From: Ulvibacterium marinum
GTDB taxonomy: Bacteria > Bacteroidota > Bacteroidia > Flavobacteriales > Flavobacteriaceae
Direction of reading: 5' to 3'
Assembly: GCF_003626755.1 (NCBI RefSeq)
Contig: NZ_RBCJ01000005.1
Span: 62,001 to 126,000 of the forward strand
DNA length: 64,000 bases
Under the pieces are notes generated by a model, which saw nothing but the letters and a program-made list of their open reading frames with translations, was not told where the DNA came from and did no database searches. This document shows positions 938 to 16,348 of the stretch, piece after piece (position 1 is the stretch's first letter; every line of letters starts with the position of its first letter). The position numbers were made by a program, and so were the translations under genes.

Positions 938-997
938 AAATTAACAACAAGAACCATGATTTATTCGGTTCCTATTATTTCAAATCAGACAAAAATT

Positions 998-1372
998 ATG
1001 AAACGATCTAGTGAGAAGTACGTTATCGCAAAAGATGTGGAATGGGAAGAGCTTGGTGGGGGTGTATCAAGAAAGTTCTTAGGTTACGATAACCAAATTA
1101 TGATGGTACGGGTAAAATTTGAAAAAGATGCATTAGGTTCGCCACATCAACACTTTCACACACAAGCTACCTATTGTGTGTCAGGTAAATTTGAATTCGA
1201 AATTGATGGAGAAAGGCAAATTGTTGAAGCAGGGGATGGCGTTTATATTGAGCCTAATTTATTGCACAGTGCAGTTTGTTTGGAAGAAGGGGAGTTGATT
1301 GACACATTTAGCCCCGTAAGAGAGGATTTTTTAAGTGGCGGAGAAGTATCTTATTTTGGGGATAAGTCATAA
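998..1372 (+). CDS. kdgF: KdgF, cupin converting unsaturated monouronate
   Basis: Single-domain cupin of about 124 residues. KdgF speeds the conversion of 4,5-unsaturated monouronates from alginate or pectin lyases into linear 4-deoxy-L-erythro-5-hexoseulose uronate (DEH). The metal site HxHxHxQ (PHQHFHTQ) is present with a further His in the NLLHS segment about 35 residues later, followed by the family-typical C-terminal segment DTFSPVREDFL. I prefer the ATG at 998 because the extra 14 residues from the ATG at 956 look like translated leader and the KdgF fold is only about 110 residues; 956 remains possible. It lies between the PL7 lyase and an SDR gene on the same strand, which fits the second step of alginate breakdown. 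Confidence 0.9.
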   Translation: MKRSSEKYVIAKDVEWEELGGGVSRKFLGYDNQIMMVRVKFEKDALGSPHQHFHTQATYCVSGKFEFEIDGERQIVEAGDGVYIEPNLLHSAVCLEEGELIDTFSPVREDFLSGGEVSYFGDKS

Positions 1373-1415
1373 TAAAGAGGCGCAAGATTATCATTTCCAA
1401 AATTAAATAAAGATT

Positions 1416-2180
1416 ATGAAAAACAAAATAAACGGAAAAAGCGTCCTCATCACCGCAGGTGCTCAAGGAATAGGAGAATCAATCACTCGACATTTCATTG
1501 ATAGTGGGGCCAATGTCGCTATCCATTATTTTTCCAGTGCCGAGACCGCTAACCAATTGGTCGAATACGCAATTGGCAAAGGACAAAAAGCGATAGCCAT
1601 ATCTGGGGACTTAACGAAAGAGGCCAATGCAAATGCACTGGTTGAAAAGACGGTAGAAGCGTTTGGTAGTTTAAACGTGCTCATTAATAACGCTGGTTCA
1701 CTTGTCGCACGTAACCTATTAAGTGAAATGGAGGCTGATTTTTGGCATAAGGTAATGGATATCAACCTCACTTCCATGATGTTTGTGACCCGTGCGGCTG
1801 CTCCCCACCTATCAAAAAATGAAAGCAGTAGTATCGTTAATTTGGCATCGCTCGCCGGGCGCAAAGGAGGTCATCATGGATCCTTGGCGTATGCTACCAG
1901 TAAAGGAGCCATCCTAACATTTACAAGGGCTCTTTCTTCGGAATTGGGAGGGCAAGGTATAAGGGTCAACGCCGTTGCACCAGGCCTCATTCTTGGTACT
2001 TCATTTCACGACACGCATACCACAAAAGAGTCTGCCGACGCAACCACGGCCAGTATTCCCATCCAACGAGCGGGTAACGCGGACGATGTGGCGCGTGCAG
2101 TTTTATATCTCGCGTCAGAATATGATGGCTTTATTACCGGTGCTACACTGGATATCAATGGCGGGGTATATAATATGTAG
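1416..2180 (+). CDS. SDR-family oxidoreductase of alginate locus
   Basis: Classical short-chain dehydrogenase/reductase, 254 aa. The cofactor motif is TAGAQGIG (13-20, with Ala in place of the usual first Gly), then NNAG (91-94) and the catalytic Ser145, Tyr159 (YATSK) and Lys163. The C terminus carries the family end motif DINGG. In alginate loci of flavobacteria an SDR next to kdgF is common and is a candidate uronate or DEH reductase; a second, unrelated-looking SDR at 9773 sits directly before KDG kinase and is the better DEH reductase candidate. The two may differ in NADH/NADPH use, or this one may act on another intermediate. Cytoplasmic, no signal peptide. Family certain, substrate inferred. 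Confidence 0.85.
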   Translation: MKNKINGKSVLITAGAQGIGESITRHFIDSGANVAIHYFSSAETANQLVEYAIGKGQKAIAISGDLTKEANANALVEKTVEAFGSLNVLINNAGSLVARNLLSEMEADFWHKVMDINLTSMMFVTRAAAPHLSKNESSSIVNLASLAGRKGGHHGSLAYATSKGAILTFTRALSSELGGQGIRVNAVAPGLILGTSFHDTHTTKESADATTASIPIQRAGNADDVARAVLYLASEYDGFITGATLDINGGVYNM

Positions 2181-2431
2181 GTCTGCAGATGTAATAAATT
2201 TCGCAAACAATACAGTATTTAAGTCAACATTTGTCAATTAGTTTCGCAGATAAGGCTTTCCAAAAACCCCTTTGCTAGCGGGCTAGGATATCGATATTTA
2301 TGGAATTTGCTCGTTCCTAAGGAATGGACATAATTAAGAATTTACCATTCTGTTAAACGTCATTCTGACGAATCCTCAAAAAACCAAGTCATAAAATTCA
2401 AAATAAATTTTTTTTTAACGAAACAATAACA

Positions 2432-2439
2432 TATATTTG
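2432..2439 (+). promoter_or_regulatory. Bacteroidota -7 box upstream of susC
   Basis: TATATTTG is an exact match to the Bacteroidota sigma-ABfr -7 consensus TAnnTTTG. No convincing -33 TTTG element is seen in the poly-T tract upstream. It overlaps the first operator-like box by two bases, so a bound regulator would block it. Confidence 0.5.
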
Positions 2440-2476
2440 GTAAACCAAATTGGTTAACCAGTATGGAAAACCAATT
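2438..2476 (+). promoter_or_regulatory. Triple TGGTNNACCA operator before susC
   Basis: Three back-to-back 13-bp units: TGGTAAACCAAAT (2438), TGGTTAACCAGTA (2451) and TGGAAAACCAATT (2464). Each has a TGGTNNACCA palindromic core (the third with one mismatch). TGGTNNACCA-like dyads are typical operators of FadR-subfamily GntR proteins, and the same perfect core TGGTTAACCA recurs at 7466 just before the locus gntR gene. The 13-bp period is not a whole helical turn, so adjacent boxes would face different sides of the DNA. Operator role is inferred. Confidence 0.7.
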
Positions 2477-2532
2477 TAACTCAACTTAAACTAATCAAAG
2501 TACAAGCGTATGAAATAATAAAGAAGTATAAA

Positions 2533-2560
2533 AAAAGGATGGGTGCACGCCCATCCTTTT
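2533..2560 (+). terminator. Leader hairpin before susC
   Basis: Perfect 11-bp stem (AAAAGGATGGG / CCCATCCTTTT) around the loop TGCACG. A- and T-runs flank both arms, so it could act as a weak terminator in either direction. It lies about 100 bp downstream of the presumed susC promoter and 190 bp before the start codon, so it may be an attenuator or an mRNA-stability element in the susC leader; it is far (350 bp) from the SDR stop. Confidence 0.55.
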
Positions 2561-2753
2561 CAAAAACGATTACTTCATTGTGAAGGGAAGTAATACTTAC
2601 ATGATACCGTAGATATCATATTCTTCAAAACTACAACAAACATTTGAAATTTTAGAATAGGTGTCTTTGGTGAATTCCATTTAACGTGCATAAAATATGT
2701 TAAATGCAAAAAACAAATATTGACTAACTTATTTTAACTAAAATTTAAATTTT

Positions 2754-5700
2754 ATGAAAATTACGCTATTAAAAAAGCTGTTGTTGTTTGGGGCATTGAT
2801 TTGCCTCTCTGCGATATCGGCTCAGACGGTAACGGGTACGGTTACTGATTCCAGCGGGCCGTTACCAGGTGCAAGCGTTGTGGTCCAAGGAACTACAAAT
2901 GGTACACAAACCGATTTCGATGGTAATTATTCATTGGACAATGTGGATGGCTCAGCTATTTTATCAATTAGTTATATCGGCTACGCTACCCAAGAAATTG
3001 CGGTCAATGGGCAGAGTGTAATAAATGTTACCCTGGCTGAGGATGCAAGCCAACTTGAAGAAGTAGTAGTGGTAGGTTATGGTACTCAAAAAAGAGCGAA
3101 TATTACAGGTTCTGTTGCCAAAGTAGGGGGTGCCGAGGTAGCGGCCATTCAAGCACCTCGTGTTGATGATGCACTAGCAGGTAAATTACCCGGTGTTTTG
3201 ATTCAAAACCAAAGTGGTGAACCTGGTGCAGATCCGAAAATTCAAGTTAGGGCGGCCTCATCGCTTTCGGGTGACTCAAATCCGTTAATTGTTGTGGACG
3301 GGTATCCAATCTCAGGAAGTCTGGCAACGGTGAATCCGAATGACATTCAAAGTTTGGAAGTTTTGAAAGATGCCGCCTCGGCTGCCATTTACGGTTCTCG
3401 GGGTGCAAACGGGGTGATCTTGGTGACCACTAAAAAAGGTAGGTCAGGTAAGGCGAATTTTAGTTACAATGCCTACACCAGCTTCTCACGGAAATATGTA
3501 GATGATATTGAAATGCTTAAGACTCCTGTAGAGTGGGCCAACGAATTGGAAACCAGCGCTTACGACCTTTCCGAAGTTGATCCGCAATTATTCGCATACA
3601 GACAAAACGCCCTTAGAAATGCGCCCGATGTCGTAAGTATGGAAGATTGGCTGTTCCAAGGCGGTTCTACGCAAAGCCATGACATTAGTGTAAGTGGAGG
3701 TAGCGAAAATGTGCGAGCCTTTGGTTCCTTGGGTTATCTGAACACAGAAGGTATTGTAAGGGGGCAAGGTTTTGAAAGAATAAATGCACGTTTAAACCTC
3801 GATGCCAAATTGGGCAAGAAATTAGAAGCAGGATTGAGTTTCAATGGATTTCGAGGTCATCAAGATATTGTACCTCATGACATGAGGGATCTCTTAAGGT
3901 CGTATAGTATTCACCCCATTTACCATACACAGGCATCAATTGATTTCGTTCAATCTCTAGACGCTCAAAGACAGGCATTGTTCGATGCAACGGGTGGTGC
4001 AAACATTCCAAGTGCTTTTGCAGACCCATTTGATAATGGTTATAGGGGAACCGGTAATATTACTTCAAGTATCAATGATTTAGTACCTGGAGATATTGCA
4101 CATGAATGGCATTATGGTAGAGCTCAAAATGGTATCGGTGGATCAGGGGATGCAGGTCCAGCGGCAAAGTTTGACAATGCGCGCAGGTATCAAAGGACAT
4201 ATTTTGGCAATGTAAGCTCGTACCTGCAATACGAAATCTTAGATGGCTTGAACGTAAAAACAGTTCTGGGTGGAGATTTTAGGGATGTCGAGGACTACTA
4301 TTATCAGGGTACTTTGGCAGATGCTCGTGAACGGAGCAATCAATCCGACCTGGATATTTCCAATATCAGAACATCTTCTTGGTTAAGTGAATCCACTTTG
4401 AATTTTGCCAAGGTTATAGGTAAGCATGATATAGCCGCCGTGGCGGGCTTTGAAATGCAGAATACCTATATAAGGGGAATTAGTTCTGTTGGAACAAATG
4501 TCCCTATTGGTCTTCCTCAAAATTATGGCCTATTCGACCCGGCAGATGTGATTTCAACAGAAATCGATGAGACAAGGTCAAGAAGAAGTGTTTTTGGAAG
4601 AATTCAGTATGCGTTTGACGGCCGTTATTTGATAACTGCATCGATTAGAAGAGACGGTGACTCTCGATTCGGAGCCAATAATCGGTTCGCAACTTTTCCG
4701 GCACTTTCAGTAGGTTGGAACATTCACAATGAATCTTTCTTAAAAGACAACGATTTCTTGAGCCAATTTAAATTGAGGTTCAGTACAGGTTCTTTGGGCA
4801 CCACTTCTTTCTTAGGGTCATACGACGCGTTGAGCTTGTTGAGTGCGGCGCCAACCGCTACCGGAACTGGATTTCTCATACCCAATAATGTAGCAAACCC
4901 TGATCTGACATGGCAGACGAATACAGAAACCAACTATGGTACAGATTTGGGATTTTTTAATAATCGTCTACGAATAGGGGTAGATTACTATACGTCCGAT
5001 ATAGAGGATATGTTAATTAACCAAAGTGTTTCTGAGGTGTTCGGTGTACCTTCCGTCGTACTGAATCGAGGTAATATAACAAGTTCCGGTTTGGAATTCG
5101 AACTGAATGCCAGTATTGTACAAGCGGAAGATTTTTCTTGGAGCCTTGGAGCAAACTTATCTACCGTTAACCAAGAAATCACCAGCTTGGGTGATTTGGA
5201 TGAACTACCTCGGGTAGTTTACGGTGGACCTAGTGGTAGAGGACCTGAGTTTAGAAATTATGTCGGTGGAGAACTTGGCGAAATGTGGGGGTATGCAGTA
5301 ACAGGAGAAGTTGAAACCATACATATCGCCGATCCATCTAGAAACATTGGATTCGGTAGCTCGGAATGGTACGTAGTGGATCAAAATGGTGACGGTGAAA
5401 TTACCTACGAAGGCGATTATGTCAAGCTAGGTTCTGCTACTCCTGATTTTTATTGGGGACTGTCGAGCAACTTAAATTATAGGAATTTCGATTTGTCCTT
5501 ACAGTTTCAAGGATCTGAAGGGGCAGAAGTTTACAATATCGATCCCATTTACTGGAAATCGCAATTTGGTGGTAGGCTACGTGATAGTTTTGATGCTAAT
5601 GGCGATGGTATTGCCGATGCCACTGGTCAATTTTATGAGCAGACTAGAAACGCCCATGGTTCAGGAATTCAGGATGCTTCTTATTTAGCCTTGAGAAACC

Positions 5701-5939
5701 TGACAATAGGATATACACTTAACTCGGATTTGACCAGTAAGATAGGTTTAAGCTCCTTGAGAGTATTTGCTGCAGGCACGAATCTGTTGTATTTATTCGG
5801 AGATAACTATACCTCATTTAATCCCGAAGGTGTGGAGACCACGAATTCTGGCTATCTCGGCCCGACGACCTACGGGTACCAAGAAGGTGCAAGCCCGATC
5901 GTAAGAAGCTTTACACTAGGTTTGAATGTTAATTTTTAA
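2754..5939 (+). CDS. susC: SusC-like TonB-dependent receptor (alginate oligosaccharides)
   Basis: Outer-membrane TonB-dependent transporter of the SusC/RagA family, 1061 aa. A signal peptide ends at about residue 23 (SAISAQ). A carboxypeptidase-regulatory-like beta domain follows (about 25-95), then the linker VVVVGYGTQKR (about 104-114), the plug domain with the SusC-typical VDGYPI and IYGSRGANGVI segments, and a beta barrel ending in Phe. It would import alginate oligomers into the periplasm with energy from TonB-ExbBD. The partner SusD lies directly downstream, and lyase and uronate-catabolic genes on both sides point to alginate as substrate. Probably controlled by the GntR-type regulator through the boxes at 2438-2476. 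Confidence 0.95.
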   Translation: MKITLLKKLLLFGALICLSAISAQTVTGTVTDSSGPLPGASVVVQGTTNGTQTDFDGNYSLDNVDGSAILSISYIGYATQEIAVNGQSVINVTLAEDASQLEEVVVVGYGTQKRANITGSVAKVGGAEVAAIQAPRVDDALAGKLPGVLIQNQSGEPGADPKIQVRAASSLSGDSNPLIVVDGYPISGSLATVNPNDIQSLEVLKDAASAAIYGSRGANGVILVTTKKGRSGKANFSYNAYTSFSRKYVDDIEMLKTPVEWANELETSAYDLSEVDPQLFAYRQNALRNAPDVVSMEDWLFQGGSTQSHDISVSGGSENVRAFGSLGYLNTEGIVRGQGFERINARLNLDAKLGKKLEAGLSFNGFRGHQDIVPHDMRDLLRSYSIHPIYHTQASIDFVQSLDAQRQALFDATGGANIPSAFADPFDNGYRGTGNITSSINDLVPGDIAHEWHYGRAQNGIGGSGDAGPAAKFDNARRYQRTYFGNVSSYLQYEILDGLNVKTVLGGDFRDVEDYYYQGTLADARERSNQSDLDISNIRTSSWLSESTLNFAKVIGKHDIAAVAGFEMQNTYIRGISSVGTNVPIGLPQNYGLFDPADVISTEIDETRSRRSVFGRIQYAFDGRYLITASIRRDGDSRFGANNRFATFPALSVGWNIHNESFLKDNDFLSQFKLRFSTGSLGTTSFLGSYDALSLLSAAPTATGTGFLIPNNVANPDLTWQTNTETNYGTDLGFFNNRLRIGVDYYTSDIEDMLINQSVSEVFGVPSVVLNRGNITSSGLEFELNASIVQAEDFSWSLGANLSTVNQEITSLGDLDELPRVVYGGPSGRGPEFRNYVGGELGEMWGYAVTGEVETIHIADPSRNIGFGSSEWYVVDQNGDGEITYEGDYVKLGSATPDFYWGLSSNLNYRNFDLSLQFQGSEGAEVYNIDPIYWKSQFGGRLRDSFDANGDGIADATGQFYEQTRNAHGSGIQDASYLALRNLTIGYTLNSDLTSKIGLSSLRVFAAGTNLLYLFGDNYTSFNPEGVETTNSGYLGPTTYGYQEGASPIVRSFTLGLNVNF

Positions 5940-5949
5940 TTACGAAATA

Positions 5950-7287
5950 ATGAAAAAAATGAAGATTACATATATCGTATTGGTACCAATGTTATTGATG
6001 ATGGCATGTGACAATGATTTGGATCAATTTCCACCCAAACAGTTAGAATCTAGTTCTTTGACAGATTATGCTGGTGCTTTGAATGCGGCATATCACTATC
6101 AGACCGGTACACCAACGCCATTGGCGATTATGGGTGACTTCAGGGCCGATAATATGCTGATGGATGAAGAACCCTATCCTGCATTTGACAGATTCAATGA
6201 AGATTTGGCAGGTGGGGATTTGGTAGAGCAATTTTTTCGACCGTTCTATATTAATTTGTACAAGGCAATCCTAAGCGCAAATAACGTAATAGATAATTCA
6301 GAGGATGCTACCGAAGTAGCTGAGGCTCGATTTGTAAGAGGCCTGTCTTATTTCAAGCTCGTGATGGTTTTTGGTGATGTAACCGTGAATCTATCACCCG
6401 CACCAGACGTATCCGATACGTCTATTTTGGTGAGACAACCAGCAGCTAGCGTTTATAGTGATATAATTATTCCGGACCTGCAAGCCGCAATATCTGGGCT
6501 GGATAATTCTGGACTAGGTAGTGGACGCGCGACCCAAATCGCTGCAAGAGGATTACTCGGAAAGATTCACATGTATCTGGGCGATTATGGTAATGCGGCA
6601 ACTGAACTTGCAGCTGTTATAAATGGAGCCGCCGCCGCAGGTATTAGTTTGGAAACCGACTTTGCCAATGTTGTCGCCGATGGTAATTCAGAGGTTATTT
6701 ACGCGACACAAGTATCATCCACAGTGCCCGATGTCTATACCGCAGGAACGGAATTTCCAGGGTGGTTCAGTGGAGGTGACACAAAATCGCTTACACCACT
6801 CGACCCTGACTTGGTGGCCGCTTTTGATGCTGTTGCCAATGATACACTAATAGGTGGAGACCTAAGAAGGGCATTGACGATCGATGAGGCGACAAGCACA
6901 GGAAATAAATATACCGGAGGTCTAGAACAGGATTGGATAGAACTGCGCTTATCCGACGTTATTTTAATGTACGCCGAAGCACTGAACGAAACAGGTTCTT
7001 CATCGACGGAGGTTTTGGGTCTTTTGGATGATATTAGAACCAGAGCAGGTTTGATTGTCTTGGATCCCGCAATCATTAATACGCAAGCCTTGGTAAGACA
7101 GGCCATTGCTGATGAAAGAAGATTGGAATTGGCCTTTGAAGGCCATAGATGGTTCGATTTGGTAAGAACAGGTACCGTCGATGCTGAAATGGGCGAAACG
7201 ATTAATCCGAATTATCACGTGTTTCCAATTCCAAACTCAGAAGTTCTGGCGAGTGGTGGAGTGATCACCCAAAACCCAGGATATTGA
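5950..7287 (+). CDS. susD: SusD-like glycan-binding lipoprotein
   Basis: RagB/SusD-family outer-membrane lipoprotein, about 445 aa, that caps the SusC channel and binds oligosaccharide. The start at 5950 (MKKMKITY) gives a proper lipoprotein signal with lipobox LMMAC, Cys20; an upstream ATG at 5926 overlaps the susC end and only adds eight residues. The C-terminal half has the family-typical segments RLSDVILMYAEALNE, DERRLELAFEGHRWFDLVR and a final VFPIPNSE...QNPGY. It is rather short for the family. It sits 10 bp after susC and must be cotranscribed. No recognisable binding-site residues can be assigned without a structure. Confidence 0.95.
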   Translation: MKKMKITYIVLVPMLLMMACDNDLDQFPPKQLESSSLTDYAGALNAAYHYQTGTPTPLAIMGDFRADNMLMDEEPYPAFDRFNEDLAGGDLVEQFFRPFYINLYKAILSANNVIDNSEDATEVAEARFVRGLSYFKLVMVFGDVTVNLSPAPDVSDTSILVRQPAASVYSDIIIPDLQAAISGLDNSGLGSGRATQIAARGLLGKIHMYLGDYGNAATELAAVINGAAAAGISLETDFANVVADGNSEVIYATQVSSTVPDVYTAGTEFPGWFSGGDTKSLTPLDPDLVAAFDAVANDTLIGGDLRRALTIDEATSTGNKYTGGLEQDWIELRLSDVILMYAEALNETGSSSTEVLGLLDDIRTRAGLIVLDPAIINTQALVRQAIADERRLELAFEGHRWFDLVRTGTVDAEMGETINPNYHVFPIPNSEVLASGGVITQNPGY

Positions 7288-7339
7288 AAATTGTTAGTTT
7301 TTTTAATTAGGTTGTTTGAGTTAGTTTTTTTGAAGAATT

Positions 7340-7365
7340 TGCCGGCCTGATTCTTTGGGCCGGCA
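7340..7365 (+). terminator. Hairpin after susD
   Basis: Perfect 8-bp GC-rich stem TGCCGGCC / GGCCGGCA with a 10-nt loop, 52 bp after the susD stop. The T-tract after it is short (GGTTTTCC), so it could be a terminator or a 3'-end stabiliser that lets the following regulator be expressed separately. Confidence 0.6.
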
Positions 7366-7452
7366 GGTTTTCCAAATCCTTGAAAAACCCTGTATTCGCT
7401 ATGGTTTTTAAAGTCTATAATACTTTTTTTAATTCAGTATTTTTCTTAGTTT

Positions 7453-7478
7453 TAACAAACCAATCTGGTTAACCAATT
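7453..7478 (+). promoter_or_regulatory. Operator-like boxes before gntR
   Basis: Two 13-bp units, TAACAAACCAATC (7453, degenerate left half) and TGGTTAACCAATT (7466, perfect palindromic core). The 19 bases 7457-7475 match 2442-2460 in front of susC at 17 positions. The box ends five bases before the GTG start, which suggests autoregulation by occlusion of the ribosome or promoter region. Confidence 0.65.
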
Positions 7479-7482
7479 AATA

Positions 7483-8211
7483 GTGACAGATATTAAACAG
7501 CATATGAAATTAGAAATCCTCACAAAAAACGAAAATCAAGAAATCCAGAATGGAATAATATCCAAGATTCGGGATTTGATAAATTATAAAAACTTAGAAC
7601 CTGGTGATAAACTACCTTCGGAACGAATGCTGGCAGAAAGATTCGAGGTAAGTAGAAGCAATCTAAGGGAAGCCATCCAAAAATTGGAATTCTATGGCAT
7701 ATTAAAGTCCAAACCGCAAAGTGGCACTTTCATCGCAGATATCGGGCAAGTGGCTATGAATGGTATGATCGAGGATATTTTAAGGCTCGAAGAACCTGAT
7801 TTCAAATCCTTGGTCGAGACAAGGATTTTGATGGAGCTTAAGACCGCTAGGCTTGCGGCACTTAGAAGAACAAAAGAAGATTTGAAGCAGATGCACGATG
7901 CCTTAATGGCATATAGCGAAAAAGTTATGAATGGAGAGGATGCCGTACAAGAAGATTTGCTTTTTCATTTGGCGATAGCCAAAGCAAGTGGCAATAGCAC
8001 CATGAATACGTTTATGTTAATTATAACGCCGGAGATAATCACCAATTTCGAGAAATATCATGTTTGCGATAAAAAAATGGCCTTTAGGGGTATTCAAGAA
8101 CACAGAGAAATCTATGAGGCGATCAAGGCACAGGATTCGCAATTGGCCAAAGAAAAAATGAAGGTCCATTTTAAAATGTTGTATCAGTACTGTTACGACA
8201 TAAAAGATTAA
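7483..8211 (+). CDS. FadR/GntR-family regulator of the alginate locus
   Basis: Cytoplasmic transcription factor, 242 aa. The N-terminal winged helix-turn-helix is clear (about 23-86), with the GntR signatures PGDKLPSERMLAERF and SRSNLREAIQKLE, the wing ending SGTFIAD. The C-terminal all-helical FCD ligand domain spans about 100-235. FCD regulators commonly sense sugar acids; here KDG or DEH is a plausible effector. The start is GTG at 7483; an ATG at 7504 would trim seven residues and leave more room after the operator-like box that ends at 7475. It most likely represses susC/D and itself via TGGTNNACCA boxes. Confidence 0.9.
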   Translation: MTDIKQHMKLEILTKNENQEIQNGIISKIRDLINYKNLEPGDKLPSERMLAERFEVSRSNLREAIQKLEFYGILKSKPQSGTFIADIGQVAMNGMIEDILRLEEPDFKSLVETRILMELKTARLAALRRTKEDLKQMHDALMAYSEKVMNGEDAVQEDLLFHLAIAKASGNSTMNTFMLIITPEIITNFEKYHVCDKKMAFRGIQEHREIYEAIKAQDSQLAKEKMKVHFKMLYQYCYDIKD

Positions 8212-8217
8212 AAAAAC

Positions 8218-8249
8218 GAAAAGATAAAATTGCACGCTTTTATCTTTTC
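8218..8249 (+). terminator. Hairpin after gntR
   Basis: Perfect 12-bp A/T-rich stem GAAAAGATAAAA / TTTTATCTTTTC around an 8-nt loop, seven bases after the gntR stop. Position and the T-rich right arm fit a terminator, though the stem is weak. The loop contains TGCACGC, also at the apex of the hairpin at 2533-2560. Confidence 0.55.
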
Positions 8250-8428
8250 AACACAATAGAAATACAGCAAAAAAATAGAAGGGAACCAATACTTAAATCT
8301 TATAGAGAATGCGATGGCATTGAAACCGTCGTCAAATGACTTCCAGAATTTTTTAGCTAGAAAACAAGTAAGTCGGGCAAGTTTAGGAGGTACTTGTCGC
8401 AGGATTACTATGCCTAAAATAAAATGAT

Positions 8429-9724
8429 ATGAAAATCAAAGGATTAAGATGGTGGGTCATAGGTCTGATTGCTCTGGCCACCGTAATCAATTACATTGAT
8501 CGTCAGGCGCTACCTGTACTTTGGCCCGATATTGCCGAGAATTTGTATCCCGATAAGACCGCTGATGAGCGAAAGGGAATCTATGCGATTATCTCAACAA
8601 TATTCATATTTGCCTATGCCTTTGGCCAAGCCATATTTGGAAAGATTTTCGACAAGCTTGGAACTCGGATCGGGTTTGCATTGTCGATTGGTTTTTGGTC
8701 AATTGCAACTGCGCTGCATGCTTTTGCAAAGGGAGTTGTAAGTCTCAGTATTTTCCGTGCAATATTAGGTGTTGCGGAAGCCGGAAACTGGCCCGGAGCG
8801 GCAAAGGGAAATGCAGAATGGTTTCCTACGAAGGAAAGGGCATTTGCGCAAGGTCTTTTCAATTCAGGTGCGGCCGTTGGGGGAATCATCGCCTTTCCCA
8901 CCATCGGATTATTGTCTGTTCATTTCAACTGGCAATGGATTTTCATATTGGTTGGTGTAACGGGCTTATTATGGCTTATTCCATGGTGGATTTTGGTAAA
9001 ATCCCCCCCTAAAAGACACCCTTGGATCACCAAAGAAGAGCGTGAATACATCTTGACCGGACAGAAAAACCAAGATTTGGACAAAGATGGGGAATTTGAT
9101 GACGGTTACAACCCTGAAACCGGTAAGATGCTAAGGCATAAAGAAAGTTGGGGCGTAATCATTGCGTCTGCTGCCCTTGACCCAATTTGGTGGTTGTTTA
9201 TCTTTTGGATACCCATTTACCTTAATGAGGTTTACGGAATGGATGTAAAAGCAATTGGGTTCTATGCTTGGGTACCTTATGTCGGTGCCATGATCGGAGC
9301 TTGGTTTGGAGGGCTTTTGGCACAAAACCGTATAAAAGCAGGTTGGTCGGTGAACAAAACGCGCAAGTTTGTAATCACACTCGGATGTTTAATCATGTTA
9401 CCTACTTTAATCGCAATGGCAAATCCGGGAGGACCGGTAACCGCTGTGCTTCTAATGGCAGTCATATTATTCGGTTTCCAAACCGCGATCGGCAATGTGC
9501 AGACCTTGCCCAGTGATCTGTTCGGCGGAAAAACAGTCGGCACACTTTCAGGATTTGCAGGTATGGCCGCCAAGTTAGGAGCATTTGGCCTAACAGCATT
9601 GGTTCCTTGGCTTACATCAGGGGGCAATTATACACCGGCATTTATTATCGGAGCAGCGTTGGCTATAATAACTATGGCCAGTATATGGATATTATGCCCT
9701 AAAATAGAACCATTAAAACCCTAG
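8429..9724 (+). CDS. MFS uronate transporter (ExuT/ACS family)
   Basis: Inner-membrane major facilitator of the anion:cation symporter family, 431 aa with about 12 membrane segments. The first segment carries INYIDRQALPVLWPDI, typical of hexuronate and glucarate carriers, and the family motif GxAEAGNWPGAAK follows near residue 110-122. Two transmembrane halves flank a polar loop (about 190-235). In an alginate locus it probably brings DEH or related monouronates from periplasm to cytoplasm, ahead of DEH reductase. It starts 217 bp after gntR, with no operator-like box in that gap. The following SDR begins 48 bp after its stop. Family clear, exact substrate inferred. Confidence 0.88.
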   Translation: MKIKGLRWWVIGLIALATVINYIDRQALPVLWPDIAENLYPDKTADERKGIYAIISTIFIFAYAFGQAIFGKIFDKLGTRIGFALSIGFWSIATALHAFAKGVVSLSIFRAILGVAEAGNWPGAAKGNAEWFPTKERAFAQGLFNSGAAVGGIIAFPTIGLLSVHFNWQWIFILVGVTGLLWLIPWWILVKSPPKRHPWITKEEREYILTGQKNQDLDKDGEFDDGYNPETGKMLRHKESWGVIIASAALDPIWWLFIFWIPIYLNEVYGMDVKAIGFYAWVPYVGAMIGAWFGGLLAQNRIKAGWSVNKTRKFVITLGCLIMLPTLIAMANPGGPVTAVLLMAVILFGFQTAIGNVQTLPSDLFGGKTVGTLSGFAGMAAKLGAFGLTALVPWLTSGGNYTPAFIIGAALAIITMASIWILCPKIEPLKP

Positions 9725-9772
9725 GGTTGATAAAAAATGAAAAACAAGAATAAATTATAAAATTAGAATGGC

Positions 9773-10534
9773 ATGAGCAATAAAGGAAGAGTAGCAGTAA
9801 TAACCGGCGCAACAGGGGGCATAGGCTTCGCAGTAGCCAAAAGATTAGGGCGAGACGGATATAACGTAGTTCTAAATGGCATCGAAGATGAAGCGGGTGC
9901 CAAGCGAGTAGAAGAGCTCACCGCTGAGGGTACTACTGCCGAATATTATGGCTTTGACGTTACTAGCGACGAGGCAGTTACCTCAAATATTAAATCAATC
10001 GGTGAAAAGTATGGGAGGATTGACGTACTTGTAAACAATGCAGGTGGACTTGGCGGCAGGTCTCGATTTGAAGAAATGACCACGGATTTTTATCGATTCG
10101 TAATGGCTTTAAACCTAGATTCGGTGTTTTTCGCTTCCAGAGCGGCGATACCTTTTCTTAAAAAAGGGGAGAATGCAACTATTATCAACTATACCTCGAT
10201 TGCAGGATGGAACGCAGGAGGGCCAGGTGCTGGAATCTACGGTACCTCAAAAGCAGGAGTTCATGCCATTACCAGGGCATTGGCCAAAGATCTGGCCGAA
10301 TATGGAATCAGGGTCAATGCAGTCTCGCCGGGTACAATCGATACGCCTTTCCATGCACAAATCAAATCGACCAAGCCCGAGGTATTCGCTTCATGGAAAA
10401 ATAACATTTTGTTGGGACGATTGGGACAACCTGAAGATGTAGCATCCGTTGTTTCGTTCTTGGCGAGCGGTGATGCTTCTTTTTTAACAGCGGAAACCAT
10501 CCAAATTACCGGAGGTCAAGGTTTGGGGATTTAA
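9773..10534 (+). CDS. SDR, probable DEH reductase
   Basis: Classical SDR, 253 aa, with TGATGGIG (11-18), NNAG (88-91), Ser142, Tyr156 (YGTSK) and Lys160. Known alginate pathways reduce DEH to 2-keto-3-deoxy-D-gluconate (KDG) with such an enzyme (DehR / A1-R type). Its position directly between the uronate importer and KDG kinase makes it the main candidate for that step. Cofactor choice cannot be read with certainty: the loop after the second strand is NVVLNGIEDE, without an obvious basic residue for NADPH. It belongs to the tight gene string 9773-14799, probably one transcript. Confidence 0.88.
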   Translation: MSNKGRVAVITGATGGIGFAVAKRLGRDGYNVVLNGIEDEAGAKRVEELTAEGTTAEYYGFDVTSDEAVTSNIKSIGEKYGRIDVLVNNAGGLGGRSRFEEMTTDFYRFVMALNLDSVFFASRAAIPFLKKGENATIINYTSIAGWNAGGPGAGIYGTSKAGVHAITRALAKDLAEYGIRVNAVSPGTIDTPFHAQIKSTKPEVFASWKNNILLGRLGQPEDVASVVSFLASGDASFLTAETIQITGGQGLGI

Positions 10535-10568
10535 AACATAAAAGTTTGTTGTACAATATCTACTATAA

Positions 10569-11615
10569 ATGAAAAAAGTAGTCACTTTTGGAGAGATAAT
10601 GCTTCGACTGGCTCCTGAAGGATTTTTAAGGTTTTCACAGGCAAACAGTTTTGATGTCGTTTATGGCGGAGGTGAGTCCAATGTAGCGGTTTCTTTGGCC
10701 AACTATGATGTGCCTGTGGATTTTGTCACCAGGCTGCCTGACAACGATATTGGCCATTGTGCTCTGATGGAGATGCGCAAAAGAGGAGTCGGTACTGATA
10801 AGATAATTTACGGTGGCGATAGGCTTGGTATTTATTTTTTGGAAGCAGGTGCCGTAAGTCGTGGTAGCAAAGTAGTCTATGATCGAGCACATTCTGCAAT
10901 GGCCGAAATTGAAGCTGGTATGGTGGATTGGAAATCGGTATTTGATGGTGTGCGATGGTTCCATTGGACAGGAATAACACCTGCAATCTCTCAAGGAGCT
11001 GCAGATGCCTGTTTGGAAGCGGTAAAAATTGCCAGTGATATGGGAGTTACCATTTCAACAGATCTGAATTATCGTGCCAAGCTCTGGAAATACTGTGATG
11101 ACGGCAAACGGGAAGAAATTATGTCTGAACTGACTGCCTATTGTGATGTTGTTTTGGGCAATGAGGAAGATGCCGAGAAACACTTCGGAATAAAGCCCGA
11201 GGGATTGGATATTACTACCCAAGGTGAGCATGTTAAGGCCGAGGCTTTTCTATCGGTCTGCAAACAGATGATGAAACGTTTTCCAAGGGCTAAAAAAGTA
11301 ATCACAACACTACGGGGTTCATTATCCGCATCCCACAATACGTGGGCTGGGGTGCTTTATGACGGAAAGACCATGTATAAGTCCCCAGAATATCAAATTA
11401 CCCATATAGTCGACCGTGTAGGCGGAGGCGATTCTTTTATGGGAGGATTAATTTATGGATTGCTAAAATATCCTGATGATGATCAGAATGCATTGAACTT
11501 TGCGGTAGCCGCATCCTGCTTGAAACATACGATTAAAGGAGATGCTAATTTGGCAACGGTTTCAGAAGTGGAGAAATTGATGGGTGGTGATGCATCAGGT
11601 AGGGTAACTAGATAA
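10569..11615 (+). CDS. kdgK: 2-keto-3-deoxygluconate kinase (PfkB family)
   Basis: Ribokinase-fold sugar kinase, 348 aa, phosphorylating KDG to KDPG with ATP. The N-terminal GGGESNVA motif (33-40) and the PfkB signature DRVGGGDSFMGG (282-293) with catalytic base Asp288 are intact. The segment TDLNYRAKLW (164-173) is characteristic of KDG kinases rather than fructokinases. A slightly long C-terminal tail follows the fold. It is 34 bp after the SDR and 4 bp before the PFK gene, so translational coupling with the latter is likely. Cytoplasmic. Confidence 0.93.
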   Translation: MKKVVTFGEIMLRLAPEGFLRFSQANSFDVVYGGGESNVAVSLANYDVPVDFVTRLPDNDIGHCALMEMRKRGVGTDKIIYGGDRLGIYFLEAGAVSRGSKVVYDRAHSAMAEIEAGMVDWKSVFDGVRWFHWTGITPAISQGAADACLEAVKIASDMGVTISTDLNYRAKLWKYCDDGKREEIMSELTAYCDVVLGNEEDAEKHFGIKPEGLDITTQGEHVKAEAFLSVCKQMMKRFPRAKKVITTLRGSLSASHNTWAGVLYDGKTMYKSPEYQITHIVDRVGGGDSFMGGLIYGLLKYPDDDQNALNFAVAASCLKHTIKGDANLATVSEVEKLMGGDASGRVTR

Positions 11616-11619
11616 ATAA

Positions 11620-12843
11620 ATGACTTCAAAAAAGTCCATATTGATCATTTGTGGTGGTGGCCCTGCCCCTGGTATCAATGCTGTTATCAGTACGGTTGCA
11701 AAGATTTTTCTGAAAGACGGTTATCGCGTACTAGGTCTTCATGAAGGCTTTAAAGGGATATTTTCTGAAAACCCTTCAATCAAGGAATTCGATTTCCCTC
11801 ACGCTGACCGTATTTTCAGTCGGGGCGGTTCGACCTTGATTATGAGCCGTTTCAAGCCAAAGAACGAAAAGCTAAACACTAACCTTTTTTTTAACAACAA
11901 CGTAAAACTGTTGGTCAGTATTGGTGGCGATGATACCGCCTCTACGGCCAACAGGATTACGGATTTTCTTCGCAAGGAAGGCATCGTGATTTCCAATATT
12001 CACGTTCCCAAAACAATTGACAACGATTTACCACTTCCTGATAGAAATCCCACTTTTGGTTTTCACTCCGCGAAGGACGAGGGGGTCCGTATCGGGAACA
12101 CCACCTATGAAGACGCCAGAACCAGCAATAATTGGTTTGTCATGTCAACCATGGGCCGATCGGCGGGCCATTTGGCCTTTGGCATTGCCACAAGCTGCCA
12201 TTTTCCGATGATGGTCATTCCTGAGATGTTTGATAAGACCGATATTACCTTCGATAAAGTGGTCCGTTTGGTGATTTCATCCATGGTCAAAAGAAAGATA
12301 GAGAATATTCATTATGGAGTTGCTCTAATTAGCGAAGGAGTGTTCCATATTTTACCTGACTCTGAAATAAAGAATTGTGGTATCAACTTTACTTATGATG
12401 AACATGGTCATCCTGAATTAGGTAATGTAAGCAAGTCACACATTTTTAATGTACTTGTCCAGGCCCGTTTAAAGGAACTGGGTATTAAGATTAAGAGCCG
12501 ACCAGTGGAGTTGGGATATGAGCTCCGCTGTTGTAGACCGATTGGTTTTGATTTGACCCTATGTACTTTATTGGGCTTGGGGGTAAAGAAGCTTTTTGAT
12601 GATAGGCTTAGCGGATGTATTGTAACTGCAAACTCGCGAGGTGAAGTGACACCGCTTTTTTTGAATGATTTACAGGATGAGCAGGGCAAAATAGTTCCGC
12701 GACTGGTGAATATCAATTCGGAATTTGCCCGACTCTGTTTCCAAAATTTGAACTATTTGAGTGAATCCGACTATGATGGTGCAAGCACATACCTAAAGAA
12801 CCCCGAAAAATACGATTTTGATAAAATTCTAACTGAGGCATAG
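11620..12843 (+). CDS. Phosphofructokinase, PPi-type residues
   Basis: PFK-A fold enzyme, 407 aa, interconverting fructose-6-phosphate and fructose-1,6-bisphosphate. The phosphoryl-donor loop reads GGDDT (102-106), with Asp105 where ATP enzymes have Gly, and the active-site loop is PKTIDND (130-136), with Lys131; Asp plus Lys at these places is the mark of PPi-dependent PFK. The MGR motif is at 178-180. The PPi reaction is reversible, so it could run toward gluconeogenesis, useful when cells grow on alginate and obtain only triose and pyruvate. It lies 4 bp after kdgK and 6 bp before eda, an unusual place for a PFK. Some PFK-fold proteins have other substrates, so activity is inferred. Confidence 0.85.
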   Translation: MTSKKSILIICGGGPAPGINAVISTVAKIFLKDGYRVLGLHEGFKGIFSENPSIKEFDFPHADRIFSRGGSTLIMSRFKPKNEKLNTNLFFNNNVKLLVSIGGDDTASTANRITDFLRKEGIVISNIHVPKTIDNDLPLPDRNPTFGFHSAKDEGVRIGNTTYEDARTSNNWFVMSTMGRSAGHLAFGIATSCHFPMMVIPEMFDKTDITFDKVVRLVISSMVKRKIENIHYGVALISEGVFHILPDSEIKNCGINFTYDEHGHPELGNVSKSHIFNVLVQARLKELGIKIKSRPVELGYELRCCRPIGFDLTLCTLLGLGVKKLFDDRLSGCIVTANSRGEVTPLFLNDLQDEQGKIVPRLVNINSEFARLCFQNLNYLSESDYDGASTYLKNPEKYDFDKILTEA

Positions 12844-12849
12844 TATATT

Positions 12850-13518
12850 ATGGCACAATTCTCAAGAATAGAAGTGGCAACCGCAATGAAGGAAACCGGA
12901 ATGGTACCTTTGTTTTATCATCCCGATGTGGAATTGGGAAAAAAGGTACTCAAGGCCTGTTATGATGGCGGTGCACGGTTGATGGAATTTACCGCAAGGG
13001 GCGATTTTGCCTTTGAGGTTTTTTCCGAGCTGAACAAATATGGGCTGAAAGAACTTCCAGGCATGATAATGGGAGTGGGATCCATCACCGATGCCGGAGG
13101 TGCCTCAATGTACCTGCAAATGGGGGCAAATTTTATCGTTACCCCGTCTCTGCGAGAAGACATCGCCATAGTCTGCAATCGCAGAAAAGTACTTTGGTCT
13201 CCCGGATGCGGTTCATTGACAGAAATCAATAAGGCCGAAGAACTAGGTTGCGAGATTATCAAGTTGTTTTCAGGCTCAACATATGGGCCAGACTTTGTCA
13301 AAGCAATCAGGGGGCCACAACCATGGACGAGCATCATGCCTACTGGCGGGGTCAACACCGAGGAAGCGAATTTGAGGGCTTGGTTTGAAGCTGGTGTGAC
13401 CTGTGTAGGTATGGGGTCAAAGCTGATAAGCAAAGACATCTTGGCAAACAAAGATTTTGAAAACTTGGAAAATCTGGTGAGAAATACACTAGGCACCATC
13501 AATAAAGTAAGAAACTGA
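12850..13518 (+). CDS. eda: KDPG aldolase
   Basis: Class I aldolase of the Entner-Doudoroff pathway, 222 aa, cleaving KDPG to pyruvate and glyceraldehyde-3-phosphate. Family landmarks: catalytic Glu46 (LMEFTARG), the SPGCGS segment near 117-122, the Schiff-base Lys138 (EIIKLFSGS) and the phosphate-binding PTGGV (164-168). It completes the pathway encoded by the upstream genes. It begins 6 bp after PFK and its stop is 3 bp before the next start, so the string is surely cotranscribed. Cytoplasmic trimeric TIM barrel expected. Confidence 0.94.
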   Translation: MAQFSRIEVATAMKETGMVPLFYHPDVELGKKVLKACYDGGARLMEFTARGDFAFEVFSELNKYGLKELPGMIMGVGSITDAGGASMYLQMGANFIVTPSLREDIAIVCNRRKVLWSPGCGSLTEINKAEELGCEIIKLFSGSTYGPDFVKAIRGPQPWTSIMPTGGVNTEEANLRAWFEAGVTCVGMGSKLISKDILANKDFENLENLVRNTLGTINKVRN

Positions 13519-13521
13519 TTT

Positions 13522-14799
13522 GTGAATAACCGGCAACTTGAAAAAAAATCCTTCCTAAAAAAGCTGATTGCAATTATCTTGGCCTTCGGCCCTGGGATAT
13601 TCGCCATCGGCTATACGATTGGTACGGGCAGCGTAACTTCTATGATTGTTGCCGGTAGCACCTACGGAATGCAGCTGTTGTGGGTACTGTTGTTGAGCTG
13701 TTTCTTTTCAGGTATTCTCATATATGTTTACGGAAATTATACATTGATTACGGGGGAAACAGCCTTATTTGCATTTAAAAATCACTTGAAATGGGGCAAG
13801 GCCATGGCGATTCTGATTATCATAGGAATTGCTTTCGGCCAGTGGAATTCGTTGATGGGAATCATGGGTATTTCTGCCAATATCATCTATGAGATATTTG
13901 CCATTTATTTTCCGCAGATCGTTCAGTACAAATATGAAACGGTGATAGGTATTGCTGTAGTGGTAACCGCCATTTTTTATGCGCTGCTTCTGGTAGGCAA
14001 ATACACCTTTTTTGAAAAGATCCTTGTCATTTTTGTAACTATCATGGGGCTTTCTTTTATGATATCCCTTTTTATGGTATATCCACTACCATCTGATGTG
14101 TTAAAAGGACTTGTCCCGAGTATTCCCGAAGTAAAAGGCGGCAAGATGTTGGTTGCCGCATTCGTGGGCACAACGATGGCGGCGGCTACCTTTTTGTCGC
14201 GTCCGCTTTTCGTAAAGGGTAAAGGTTGGACAATAAATAATCTAAAAACACAAAAAAAGGATGCCATTATTGCTGCAATTCTGGTATTTGTCATAAGTGC
14301 CGCTATAATGGCTGTTGCTACGGGAGCCCTCTTTTATGATGGAAAACCCGTAATTAAAGTCTTGGACATGGTAAATACTTTGGAACCAGTTGCTGGTAAA
14401 TTTGCCTTGACCCTTTTCTTTTTTGGAACCCTAAGTGCCGGGCTTTCATCAATTTTCCCCATTCTATTGATTGTCCCCATTTTAATTGCTGACTACCAAT
14501 CTGGAGAATTAGATACAAGTTCGAGACAATTTAAGATTATCACTGCCTTTGCCTGCTTATTTGCCTTGATTGTTCCAGTGTTTGGATCAAACCCTGTCGA
14601 GATACAGATTTTTTCACAGATTTTCAATGTTTTTGTACTTCCGTTAGTGATTGTGGGAATCATGTTCTTGATCAACAACGGAAAACTTATGAAAGGGCAC
14701 AAGACCAGCTTGGTAATCAATATTGGGCTGGTACTTGCTTTTATTTTTTCTTGTGTCATATCCTATAATGGGGTATCTGCATTGCTTGGCTTTTTTTAA
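13522..14799 (+). CDS. Nramp-fold transporter lacking metal-site residues
   Basis: Polytopic inner-membrane protein of the Nramp family, 425 aa, about 11 membrane segments. The start is GTG at 13522, 3 bp after the eda stop; no nearby ATG exists. The first segment keeps the family GPG...GY lead-in (23-31), but the metal motif DPGN is replaced by IGTG (33-36). In the sixth segment the metal-binding Met-Pro-His is replaced by Ala-Ala-Ala within GTTMAAATF (216-224). It therefore should not carry Mn2+/Fe2+ like canonical Nramp. Being last in a tight operon for uronate catabolism suggests it moves an organic acid or another ion; that is inference. Automated tools would call it a divalent metal transporter. 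Confidence 0.8.
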   Translation: MNNRQLEKKSFLKKLIAIILAFGPGIFAIGYTIGTGSVTSMIVAGSTYGMQLLWVLLLSCFFSGILIYVYGNYTLITGETALFAFKNHLKWGKAMAILIIIGIAFGQWNSLMGIMGISANIIYEIFAIYFPQIVQYKYETVIGIAVVVTAIFYALLLVGKYTFFEKILVIFVTIMGLSFMISLFMVYPLPSDVLKGLVPSIPEVKGGKMLVAAFVGTTMAAATFLSRPLFVKGKGWTINNLKTQKKDAIIAAILVFVISAAIMAVATGALFYDGKPVIKVLDMVNTLEPVAGKFALTLFFFGTLSAGLSSIFPILLIVPILIADYQSGELDTSSRQFKIITAFACLFALIVPVFGSNPVEIQIFSQIFNVFVLPLVIVGIMFLINNGKLMKGHKTSLVINIGLVLAFIFSCVISYNGVSALLGFF

Positions 14800-15036: not shown

Positions 15037-16348
15037 TTAAGGAATCACTCTAACATCAGTTGGCTTTTTTCTTTTTGACTTCATTACATCCATCGAATTC
15101 TGCATATCCTCACCTACTTTCTTTGCAACCACTTTGGCATAAACTTGAGTAGTGGAAAGTTTGGTATGGTCTAAGAGTTTAGAGACGGTTTCAATAGGTA
15201 CATCGTTGGAAAGTGTAATAGCTGTAGCGAAGGTGTGTCTCGCTATATGAAATGTCAAATTTTTTATGAATCCCGCATGTTTTGGAAATATCTTTTAAGA
15301 TACAATTGATCATATGATTGGTGTAAGTAGGCAACAACCTTTGATCAGTTATGACCTCAAGGGCTTCTTTGTACTTGTCGATAATTTCCTTGGCCTTCGG
15401 CAACAACGGAATTTTTAGAGGTTCGTCAGTTTTGGTTCGCTTGGTGTACAACCAATCATTGCCATCAATGCCCTTTGCTAGATGACCAGCTCTTAAGCCG
15501 TGAACATCAACGTAGGAGAGACCAGTGTAGCAGGCAAAAGTGAAAAGGTCTTTGATTTTCTCGTAACTTGGAGTATTAAACGAAGTATCTTCAATGGGCC
15601 TTATTTCCCGTTCCGTCAGAAATTGGCGTTTGGTTTTTTTGAACTTTAGTTTGTAATTGTCAAAGGGGTCTTTATCCAACCACTCCAAACGAACAGCTAA
15701 CCTTTACATCTTTTTAAGTCGTTCCATGTGCTTCATCGCCCCGTTGTTAGAACACTTAGTTCTAATGGTAGGTTTGTACCTCCTTAAATATTGTTCAAAA
15801 TCAACAATGAAACGGTAACTCAATTTTTTCAGTTTGATATCATTTACACCATATTCCGGTTTTAAGAACAGTTTTAGACTCCGTTCCGTAATTCCATAAT
15901 TTTTCATTGTTCCCTTTTTTAGAGAAGTATGCATCGTAGTATTATGATAACGGACAAGTTCCAATAGCGTTTTACCATCCTCATTATCACCTAAATATTT
16001 GGAGCGTATGGCGGAGGCGGTAACTAATTGATTTTCATACAACAGTTGTCTATGGCACTCATGAATTTTGGTATAGACTTGGTCAAGGTATTTATTGAGC
16101 GATTGGATATTTTGAGAATATCCCCTTCCTCTCTTCTTATTGTTGCCCCAAAGCGCATAGGGAATATCCCGATTTAAACTCATTTCCTTCACGGTTCCAT
16201 TAGAAATAATGCGAACATAAAGGATGACATTTTCTGAAATTTTTCTGTGTTTTCGAGTAAAGAATAGCACTGATAATCTACTGTTGTTGTGCGTGTTATA
16301 CGTCTTTAAGTTAATAATTAAGGTCGGTAAAGACGAAAGCCAAATCAC
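15037..16348 (-). pseudogene. Broken tyrosine recombinase (integrase)
   Basis: Remnant of a Bacteroidota-type site-specific integrase of about 430 codons. The N-terminal arm and core-binding parts run from 16348 to an in-frame TAA at 15704-15706. The same frame resumes as RLAVRLEWLDKDPFD and carries the catalytic-domain start (ACYTGLSYVDV). A frame change then occurs in a run of six A's (minus strand) at about 15260-15266, after which HIARHTFAT, LLDHTK and the nucleophile Tyr in VYAK are all present. Removing one A restores the frame. In the first block a Ser stands where many recombinases have Arg, as in IntDOT-like enzymes. It sits just beyond the 3' end of a tRNA-Pro gene, a classic integration position. 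One stop plus one frameshift argues for decay rather than error. Confidence 0.85.

Follow-up and report, generated by a model that had tools for sequence, protein, structure and literature searches.

Described systems

Nramp proteins are usually named and modelled as metal carriers. Uncharacterised Nramp-related groups without the DPGN and MPH motifs, paraphyletic to the canonical metal carriers, are described in PMC12873925, which also reports that EleNRMT moves Mg2+, and outgroup or orphan Nramp types are described in PMC9606685 and PMC10606218. A family member tied to growth on an organic acid has been reported already, as PxpT of C. glutamicum is needed for growth on 5-oxoproline, with metal not excluded in the available part of PMC13274462. 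For B. subtilis YcsG/MntG, which lies outside the canonical group, overproduction raised cellular Mn2+ and MntR binds the promoter of the ycsG operon, and the authors regard the 5-oxoproline evidence for YcsG as limited (PMC10448178). In the open-licence literature, searched by title and opening of the abstract, we found no report of an Nramp-type sugar-acid carrier, and the transporter mentions in the available portions of PMC5613140 and PMC12323373 held nothing usable on the gene discussed here.

The NRL gene and its operon

The stretch of DNA analysed, which we call the window, is 64,000 nucleotides long and comprises positions 62,001-126,000 of contig NZ_RBCJ01000005.1 of Ulvibacterium marinum, a marine bacterium that degrades seaweed. 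The main genes from 20 to 14799 are co-directional and form a putative operon, to judge from gene direction. The last of them, with an intact frame, encodes an Nramp-related carrier that we refer to as NRL. The genes are:

20-937, plus strand: PL7 alginate lyase (PF08787, 165.7 bits), open at the window edge and perhaps beginning upstream
956-1372, plus strand: KdgF-like cupin (PF07883), the KdgF name being suggested by domain, place and size
1416-2180, plus strand: SDR3, a second SDR, which co-occurs with NRL in genome searches
2754-5939, plus strand: SusC (Pfam)
5926-7287, plus strand: SusD (Pfam)
7483-8211, plus strand: GntR/FCD regulator (Pfam, NCBIfam)
8429-9724, plus strand: MFS carrier of galactonate/hexuronate type (TIGR00893, 254.7 bits, below the cut-off of 395)
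9773-10534, plus strand: SDR adjoining the MFS and KdgK genes, probable DEH reductase (Pfam, NCBIfam)
10569-11615, plus strand: KdgK-type PfkB kinase (PF00294; NF041633, 481 bits, below the cut-off of 700)
11620-12843, plus strand: PPi-type phosphofructokinase-like gene (PF00365; best NCBIfam match NF041103, 330.8 bits, below the cut-off of 550)
12850-13518, plus strand: Eda, KDPG aldolase (NF005499, 374.2 bits, cut-off 275)
13522-14799, plus strand: NRL, 425 aa, GTG start (Pfam, predicted model, Foldseek)

DEH reductases are among the 60 best solved relatives of the SDR at 9773-10534, alongside many other SDRs, and the PDB matches of both window SDRs are too general to separate DEH reductase from uronate reductase. 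None of the 12 genes matches PxpA in Pfam or NCBIfam. The PPi-type phosphofructokinase-like gene is present in the operons of some relatives and missing from others.

A first-pass annotation of the window had NRL starting 3 bp past eda and closing the operon. The eda stop ends at 13518, leaving bases 13519-13521 between the two genes, and NRL is indeed the last of the plus-strand run, as the ORFs of 130 aa or longer that come next, starting at 15191, are on the opposite strand. Just past NRL, at 15191-16348, there are two adjoining minus-strand ORFs, one matching phage integrase SAM-like and arm-binding domains and the other without a Pfam match, which are perhaps a split tyrosine integrase.

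NRL scores 202.6 bits against the Nramp profile PF01566 (cut-off 29.8), 73.5 bits against NF037982, “Nramp family divalent metal transporter” (cut-off 50), and 80.2 bits against the MntH model (cut-off 430). Automatic naming would thus make NRL a metal carrier, and the warning in the first-pass annotation that such naming hides the gene as a divalent metal transporter was well placed. The AlphaFold2 model, built on 44 aligned sequences, has a mean pLDDT of 82.8 and a pTM of 0.83, and its best PDB matches in Foldseek are DraNramp, EleNRMT and BfraNramp with TMq about 0.7-0.8 (0.73-0.80 for ranks 1 to 8). By PF01566 NRL belongs to the Nramp/SLC11 family, and the predicted model has the LeuT-type fold.

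Loss of the metal-site motifs

NRL was aligned with E. coli MntH, to which it is 20% identical, and at profile level with solved Nramps. The features that matter are:

13621-13632, plus strand: GTGS at residues 34-37, where helix 1 of canonical Nramps has DPGN (alignments, conservation)
14179-14187, plus strand: AAA at residues 220-222, where helix 6 of canonical Nramps has MPH (alignments, conservation)
14200-14202, plus strand: Arg227, invariant, aligned with H216 of E. coli MntH (alignment, conservation)

The GPG context of Nramp helix 1 is retained, as the first-pass annotation had it. It was also right that DPGN is lost, with the correction that the counterpart is GTGS at 34-37 and not IGTG at 33-36, one residue off, and its replacement of MPH by AAA is found in both the MntH and the solved-Nramp alignments. 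The helix-3 residues D109 and E112 of MntH align to S110 and G113 of NRL, and H216 to R227. NRL therefore has neither the DPGN, nor the MPH, nor the helix-3 acids of the Nramp/SLC11 metal transporters, and it also lacks the helix-1 Asp of the NRMT proteins, as the Asp of 7qia pairs with Gly34 in the profile alignment.

Conservation was assessed over 144 rows with identities of 50% or more, made up of the window row, 60 family loci, 80 loci from a wider scan and 3 from a phylum search, sets which overlap so that some genomes are counted twice. GTGS, G113 and R227 are each kept in all 144, QWNS at 107-110 in 141, and residues 220-222 are AAA in 110, ASA in 31 and AAP in 3. As the replacements are conserved across these rows, the loss of the motifs is not a matter of chance. 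GTGS and R227 are again invariant in a more distant set of 44 rows, of which 43 keep G113, with 107-110 and 220-222 differing by group. A further 11 rows, PxpT-like or other, have GPGT (9) or GPGS (2) at 34-37, and 10 of them have VPY and His at the same positions as AAA and Arg227.

NRL is thus an Nramp-fold protein without the usual metal motifs. The small GTGS/AAA site together with Arg227 could instead hold a carboxylate, the charge of the pocket being judged from the alignment.

One alternative is that the substrate of NRL is still a divalent cation (Mn2+, Mg2+ or Ca2+), moved by way of a different site, and that the gene is found in alginate loci on account of the divalent cations bound by alginate and the metal needs of the pathway enzymes. 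The Nramp fold and family favour it, as do the Mn2+ phenotypes of the distant relative YcsG/MntG with MntR at its operon promoter (PMC10448178), the Mg2+ transport of EleNRMT (PMC12873925) and the chelation of divalent metals by the G blocks of alginate (PMC8286568). The genome of the window (G000) also has six proteins over the Nramp cut-off (L001-L006), and DPGN is absent from the N-terminal 60 residues of all six, so that no canonical Mn2+ Nramp was found among them. Yet NRL has no acid at the MntH-aligned positions of helices 1, 3 and 6, has Arg in place of H216 and Gly34 in place of the Asp of EleNRMT, and the gene position discussed below is one that it has in common with a gluconate symporter and not with a metal carrier. 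We consider transport of a cation to be rather unlikely.

Relatives and their gene neighbourhood

Each of our genome searches scored a small number of top candidates from a permissive initial screen, and a gene is called absent when that search did not find it at the cut-off given. NRL has matches at 1e-20 in 237 of 397 genomes of the family, and an orthologue of at least 57% identity in 60 of them, including the window's own; one more genome, with only a 116-residue piece, was excluded. In a sample of the phylum 21 of 395 genomes match at 1e-40. A wider genome scan matched at least 593 stretches with at least 575 relatives, of which the best 80 are 71-89% identical to NRL; these 80 have titles that we take to be mostly those of Flavobacteriaceae, and include records titled Labilibaculum, Cytophaga sp. 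and Bacteroidia bacterium.

A simple ORF caller and BLAST at 1e-10 served to identify marker genes, with the window operon and the alginate locus L076 as references, some of the SDR and GntR matches being of low identity. We call a locus a uronate operon if it has at least two of KdgK, Eda, MFS, SDR and GntR, and an alginate-lyase locus if it has at least two of PL6, PL7, PL17, KdgF and a gluconokinase-6PGDH fusion. The 60 orthologue loci (59 family genomes) comprise 24 uronate operons, 26 alginate-lyase loci, 2 that are both and 8 that are neither, so that 52 of 60 have one context or the other. For the best 80 of the relatives in the wider scan the figures are 48, 22, 2 and 8, the two sets sharing genomes and some loci ending at contig edges. 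In contrast, 9 PxpT-like loci have no marker except for one PFK match, and 15 loci of a group of about 40% identity have no match for lyase, KdgF, KdgK or MFS, with a NagB-like gene in 14 and an amidohydrolase in 14.

Of the 60 genomes with NRL, 46 have the PL17 lyase (1e-150), as against 35 of the 337 that lack NRL (Fisher p about 1e-25, kinship not accounted for), and in 37 of the 46 genomes having both the lyase is within 25 kb of NRL. The window's own genome is among the 14 of 60 NRL genomes without PL17 at that cut-off. Conversely 35 of the 81 PL17 genomes have no NRL, which seems therefore to be dispensable for the use of alginate. It had been proposed at the outset to look for sugar-acid genes beside NRL homologues, with occurrence free of such operons to count against the idea; within the family neither the contexts of the loci nor the PL17 distribution count against it.

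Other arrangements point to sugar acids again, by independent paths. In L241 (58% identity) the gene adjoins those for 2-keto-3-deoxygalactonokinase, an Eda-like aldolase and a lactonase, and in L102 (57%) it adjoins GntR, dehydrogenase, gluconokinase and 6PGDH genes and a GntP-like ORF, these two lying within the sister branch of the alginate group in the tree. At 8683-11257 of L144 eda is followed by a tandem pair of NRL genes that belong to different groups and are 36-37% and 89% identical to that of the window, and in L119 (genome G314) a different paralogue of about 40% identity stands after eda. NRL is linked to sugar-acid catabolism by its gene neighbourhood.

Some more distant relatives have other surroundings. 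L243 (51-52% identity) adjoins sulfatase and metallophosphatase genes and has a weak MR_MLE dehydratase-like match, which is too slight a set to be informative. The GTGS paralogue of L244-L249, which come from a different family within the phylum, is found in SusC/D-type loci, accompanied in L247 by a NagB-like gene, an SSF carrier, GH2 and GH20. Several of the six loci of the window's genome adjoin catabolic genes, including PxpA (PF03746) beside L001, an amidohydrolase with a NagB-like gene, and sulfatases with a GH88-like gene. A search of plasmids gave 35 records with NRL relatives, all below 60% identity, and a 38% relative at 807178-808415 of CP054241.1 is in a record labelled as an E. 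coli plasmid, perhaps mis-assigned or contaminated.

It could be argued that NRL carries some other small organic solute made or used in these loci, such as pyruvate, acetate or an amino acid, and that it may be an exporter. PxpT, of a separate group, is needed for growth on 5-oxoproline (PMC13274462), and there are GTGS paralogues adjoining amidohydrolase, GFO/IDH and NagB-like genes and others near GH2, GH20 and an SSF carrier. However the orthologues themselves stay with uronate or alginate genes in 52 of 60 loci, and sugar-acid kinases recur in four arrangements, so that we think such a solute very unlikely.

The MFS carrier

The window operon has a second carrier gene, that for the MFS protein, and the presence of this other candidate counts against the sugar-acid reading of NRL. 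Many of the 20-kb loci have no MFS match. The idea that NRL replaces the MFS carrier was nevertheless rejected, as a search of 30 genomes with no MFS match in the retrieved NRL locus gave an MFS homologue (1e-60) in all 30. In 22 of them it shares a contig with NRL, at a distance of 11-21 kb as counted by hand.

NRL could still import the unsaturated monomer or DEH, or move KDG, as a second carrier beside MFS for the same compound. Such import would be one form of C6 sugar-acid uptake, and our confidence in the two overlaps. NRL follows eda and kdgK not only in the window but also in many other loci, which is in keeping with it, and the DEH carrier of Flavobacterium sp. UMI-01 is said in PMC5334617 to be unidentified. 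However the review PMC8286568 gives monomer uptake in such loci to MFS carriers, and with an MFS homologue present in all 30 genomes searched a second carrier for DEH or monomer would be redundant; the distribution of SDR3 and the place beside gluconokinase that NRL shares with GntP point to a separate branch. We see a second DEH or KDG carrier as a somewhat unlikely outcome.

SDR3, the gluconokinase-6PGDH fusion and GntP

Among PL17 genomes SDR3 (at least 79% identity) is present in 33 of 46 with NRL and 2 of 35 without, and it is present in 40 of all 60 NRL genomes. The surroundings of PL17 in 20 of the 35 genomes that lack NRL include SDR3 once (L274), and the fusion at 50% identity or more not at all, with one match at 35%.

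The gluconokinase-6PGDH fusion (1e-180) is found in 40 of 397 genomes, 22 of 60 with NRL and 18 of 337 without. The association loosens when PL17 genomes are taken by themselves, with the fusion in 20 of 46 that have NRL and 6 of 35 that lack it; fusions of at least 65% identity are in 18 with NRL and 2 without. The gene directly downstream of the fusion in the 40 genomes is NRL in 21, GntP in 12 and neither in 7, with gaps of 34-65 bases to NRL and -70 to 25 to GntP. GntP was found at 1e-40 in only one of the 21 genomes with the fusion-NRL pair, and there elsewhere in the genome. For G168, which is among the 21, the match is confined to the 6PGDH part and holds three stops. The GntP of L280 scores 445.5 bits against TIGR00791, gluconate:H+ symporter (cut-off 292.75). 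G260 and G163, which have a close fusion and no NRL, have no polytopic protein beside it in the 6 kb examined.

The occurrence of NRL and GntP in the same place after the fusion suggests that they have the same or a neighbouring job. This applies to one subgroup of the orthologues and not to the window's own operon; the window's genome has no fusion, with gluconokinase-like and 6PGDH-like genes on another contig, and has three weaker GntP relatives (31-38%). Nor can the 21 pairs be treated as independent, since the 8 tree rows with the fusion-type arrangement, of which 6 have the fusion itself, group as a single clade with SH-aLRT 99, in a tree of 54 rows made by a quick method and having some long branches. 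The arrangement is therefore probably due to one event, not 21.

Proposed function

We think it reasonably probable that NRL is an inner-membrane secondary carrier, with no divalent metal at the usual central site, that imports a C6 sugar acid derived from alginate. NRL would be an alternating-access carrier of LeuT type with the Nramp fold, and in its small neutral site (GTGS, AAA) Arg227 could pair with the carboxylate. Both transport and its inward direction are inferred. The most likely substrates are aldonates or uronates that feed KDG kinase and aldolase, or gluconokinase and 6PGDH.

Reduction of the aldehyde of L-guluronate gives D-gluconate, just as reduction of D-glucuronate gives L-gulonate. 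The acid might be D-gluconate itself, or L-guluronate to be reduced by SDR3 to D-gluconate. In its most specific form the proposal would be that the GTGS/Arg clade of Bacteroidota are sugar-acid carriers, and that NRL of alginate loci imports saturated L-guluronate, which SDR3 converts to D-gluconate and the fusion to ribulose 5-phosphate, giving an undescribed second branch of alginate use with a metal-free Nramp fold as its carrier; this we put forward as speculation that is unlikely to be correct in full. The hexuronate review PMC6353982, in the part available, describes alginate monomers only by way of DEH.

The first-pass annotation had suggested an Nramp member repurposed for an organic acid. 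The link with a sugar-acid operon stands, but the order implied by “repurposed” may be backwards, as the groups without DPGN and MPH are paraphyletic to the canonical carriers (PMC12873925). As a wider speculation of the same kind, transport of organic solutes might be older in the Nramp family than that of metals.

If there is indeed a sugar-acid clade, then many “divalent metal transporter” labels in marine Bacteroidota would be incorrect. There would also be a second candidate for the inner-membrane step of alginate use, which is now assigned mostly by annotation, and closely related folds in which to ask how a LeuT-type site shifts between metal ion and organic anion.

Comparison with known systems

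The canonical Nramp/MntH (SLC11) proteins share with NRL the PF01566 family, the predicted fold (TMq about 0.7-0.8 to DraNramp) and the GPG context of helix 1, but have DPGN for GTGS, MPH for AAA, Asp and Glu for Ser and Gly in helix 3, and H216 for Arg. The NRMT Mg2+ carriers are also related, EleNRMT (7qia) being the best PDB match to the single sequence (2.4e-16) and reaching TMq 0.80 with the predicted model, but EleNRMT keeps the helix-1 Asp where NRL has Gly34. The GntP gluconate:H+ symporters occupy the same place after the gluconokinase-6PGDH fusion, but are of a different protein family (PF02447). The alginolytic systems of Alteromonas are like that of the window in having an Nramp gene in an alginate locus, which is labelled “metal-ion transporter” in PMC6431674, the likeness to NRL resting on that figure-legend label.

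PxpT/YcsG is like NRL in being an Nramp-family protein of catabolic operons. The PxpT-like loci, so labelled from a Pfam-checked PxpA beside the copy in the window's genome and elsewhere from the sizes of downstream genes, differ in being 26-30% identical to NRL and in having GPGT, VPY and His in the place of Arg227, and 5 PxpT-like rows form a group separate from NRL in the 54-row quick tree (SH-aLRT 92). NRL itself has no PxpA match among the 12 window genes from 20 to 14799 and is not on that branch. NRL bears on the dispute over whether YcsG carries 5-oxoproline or Mn2+.
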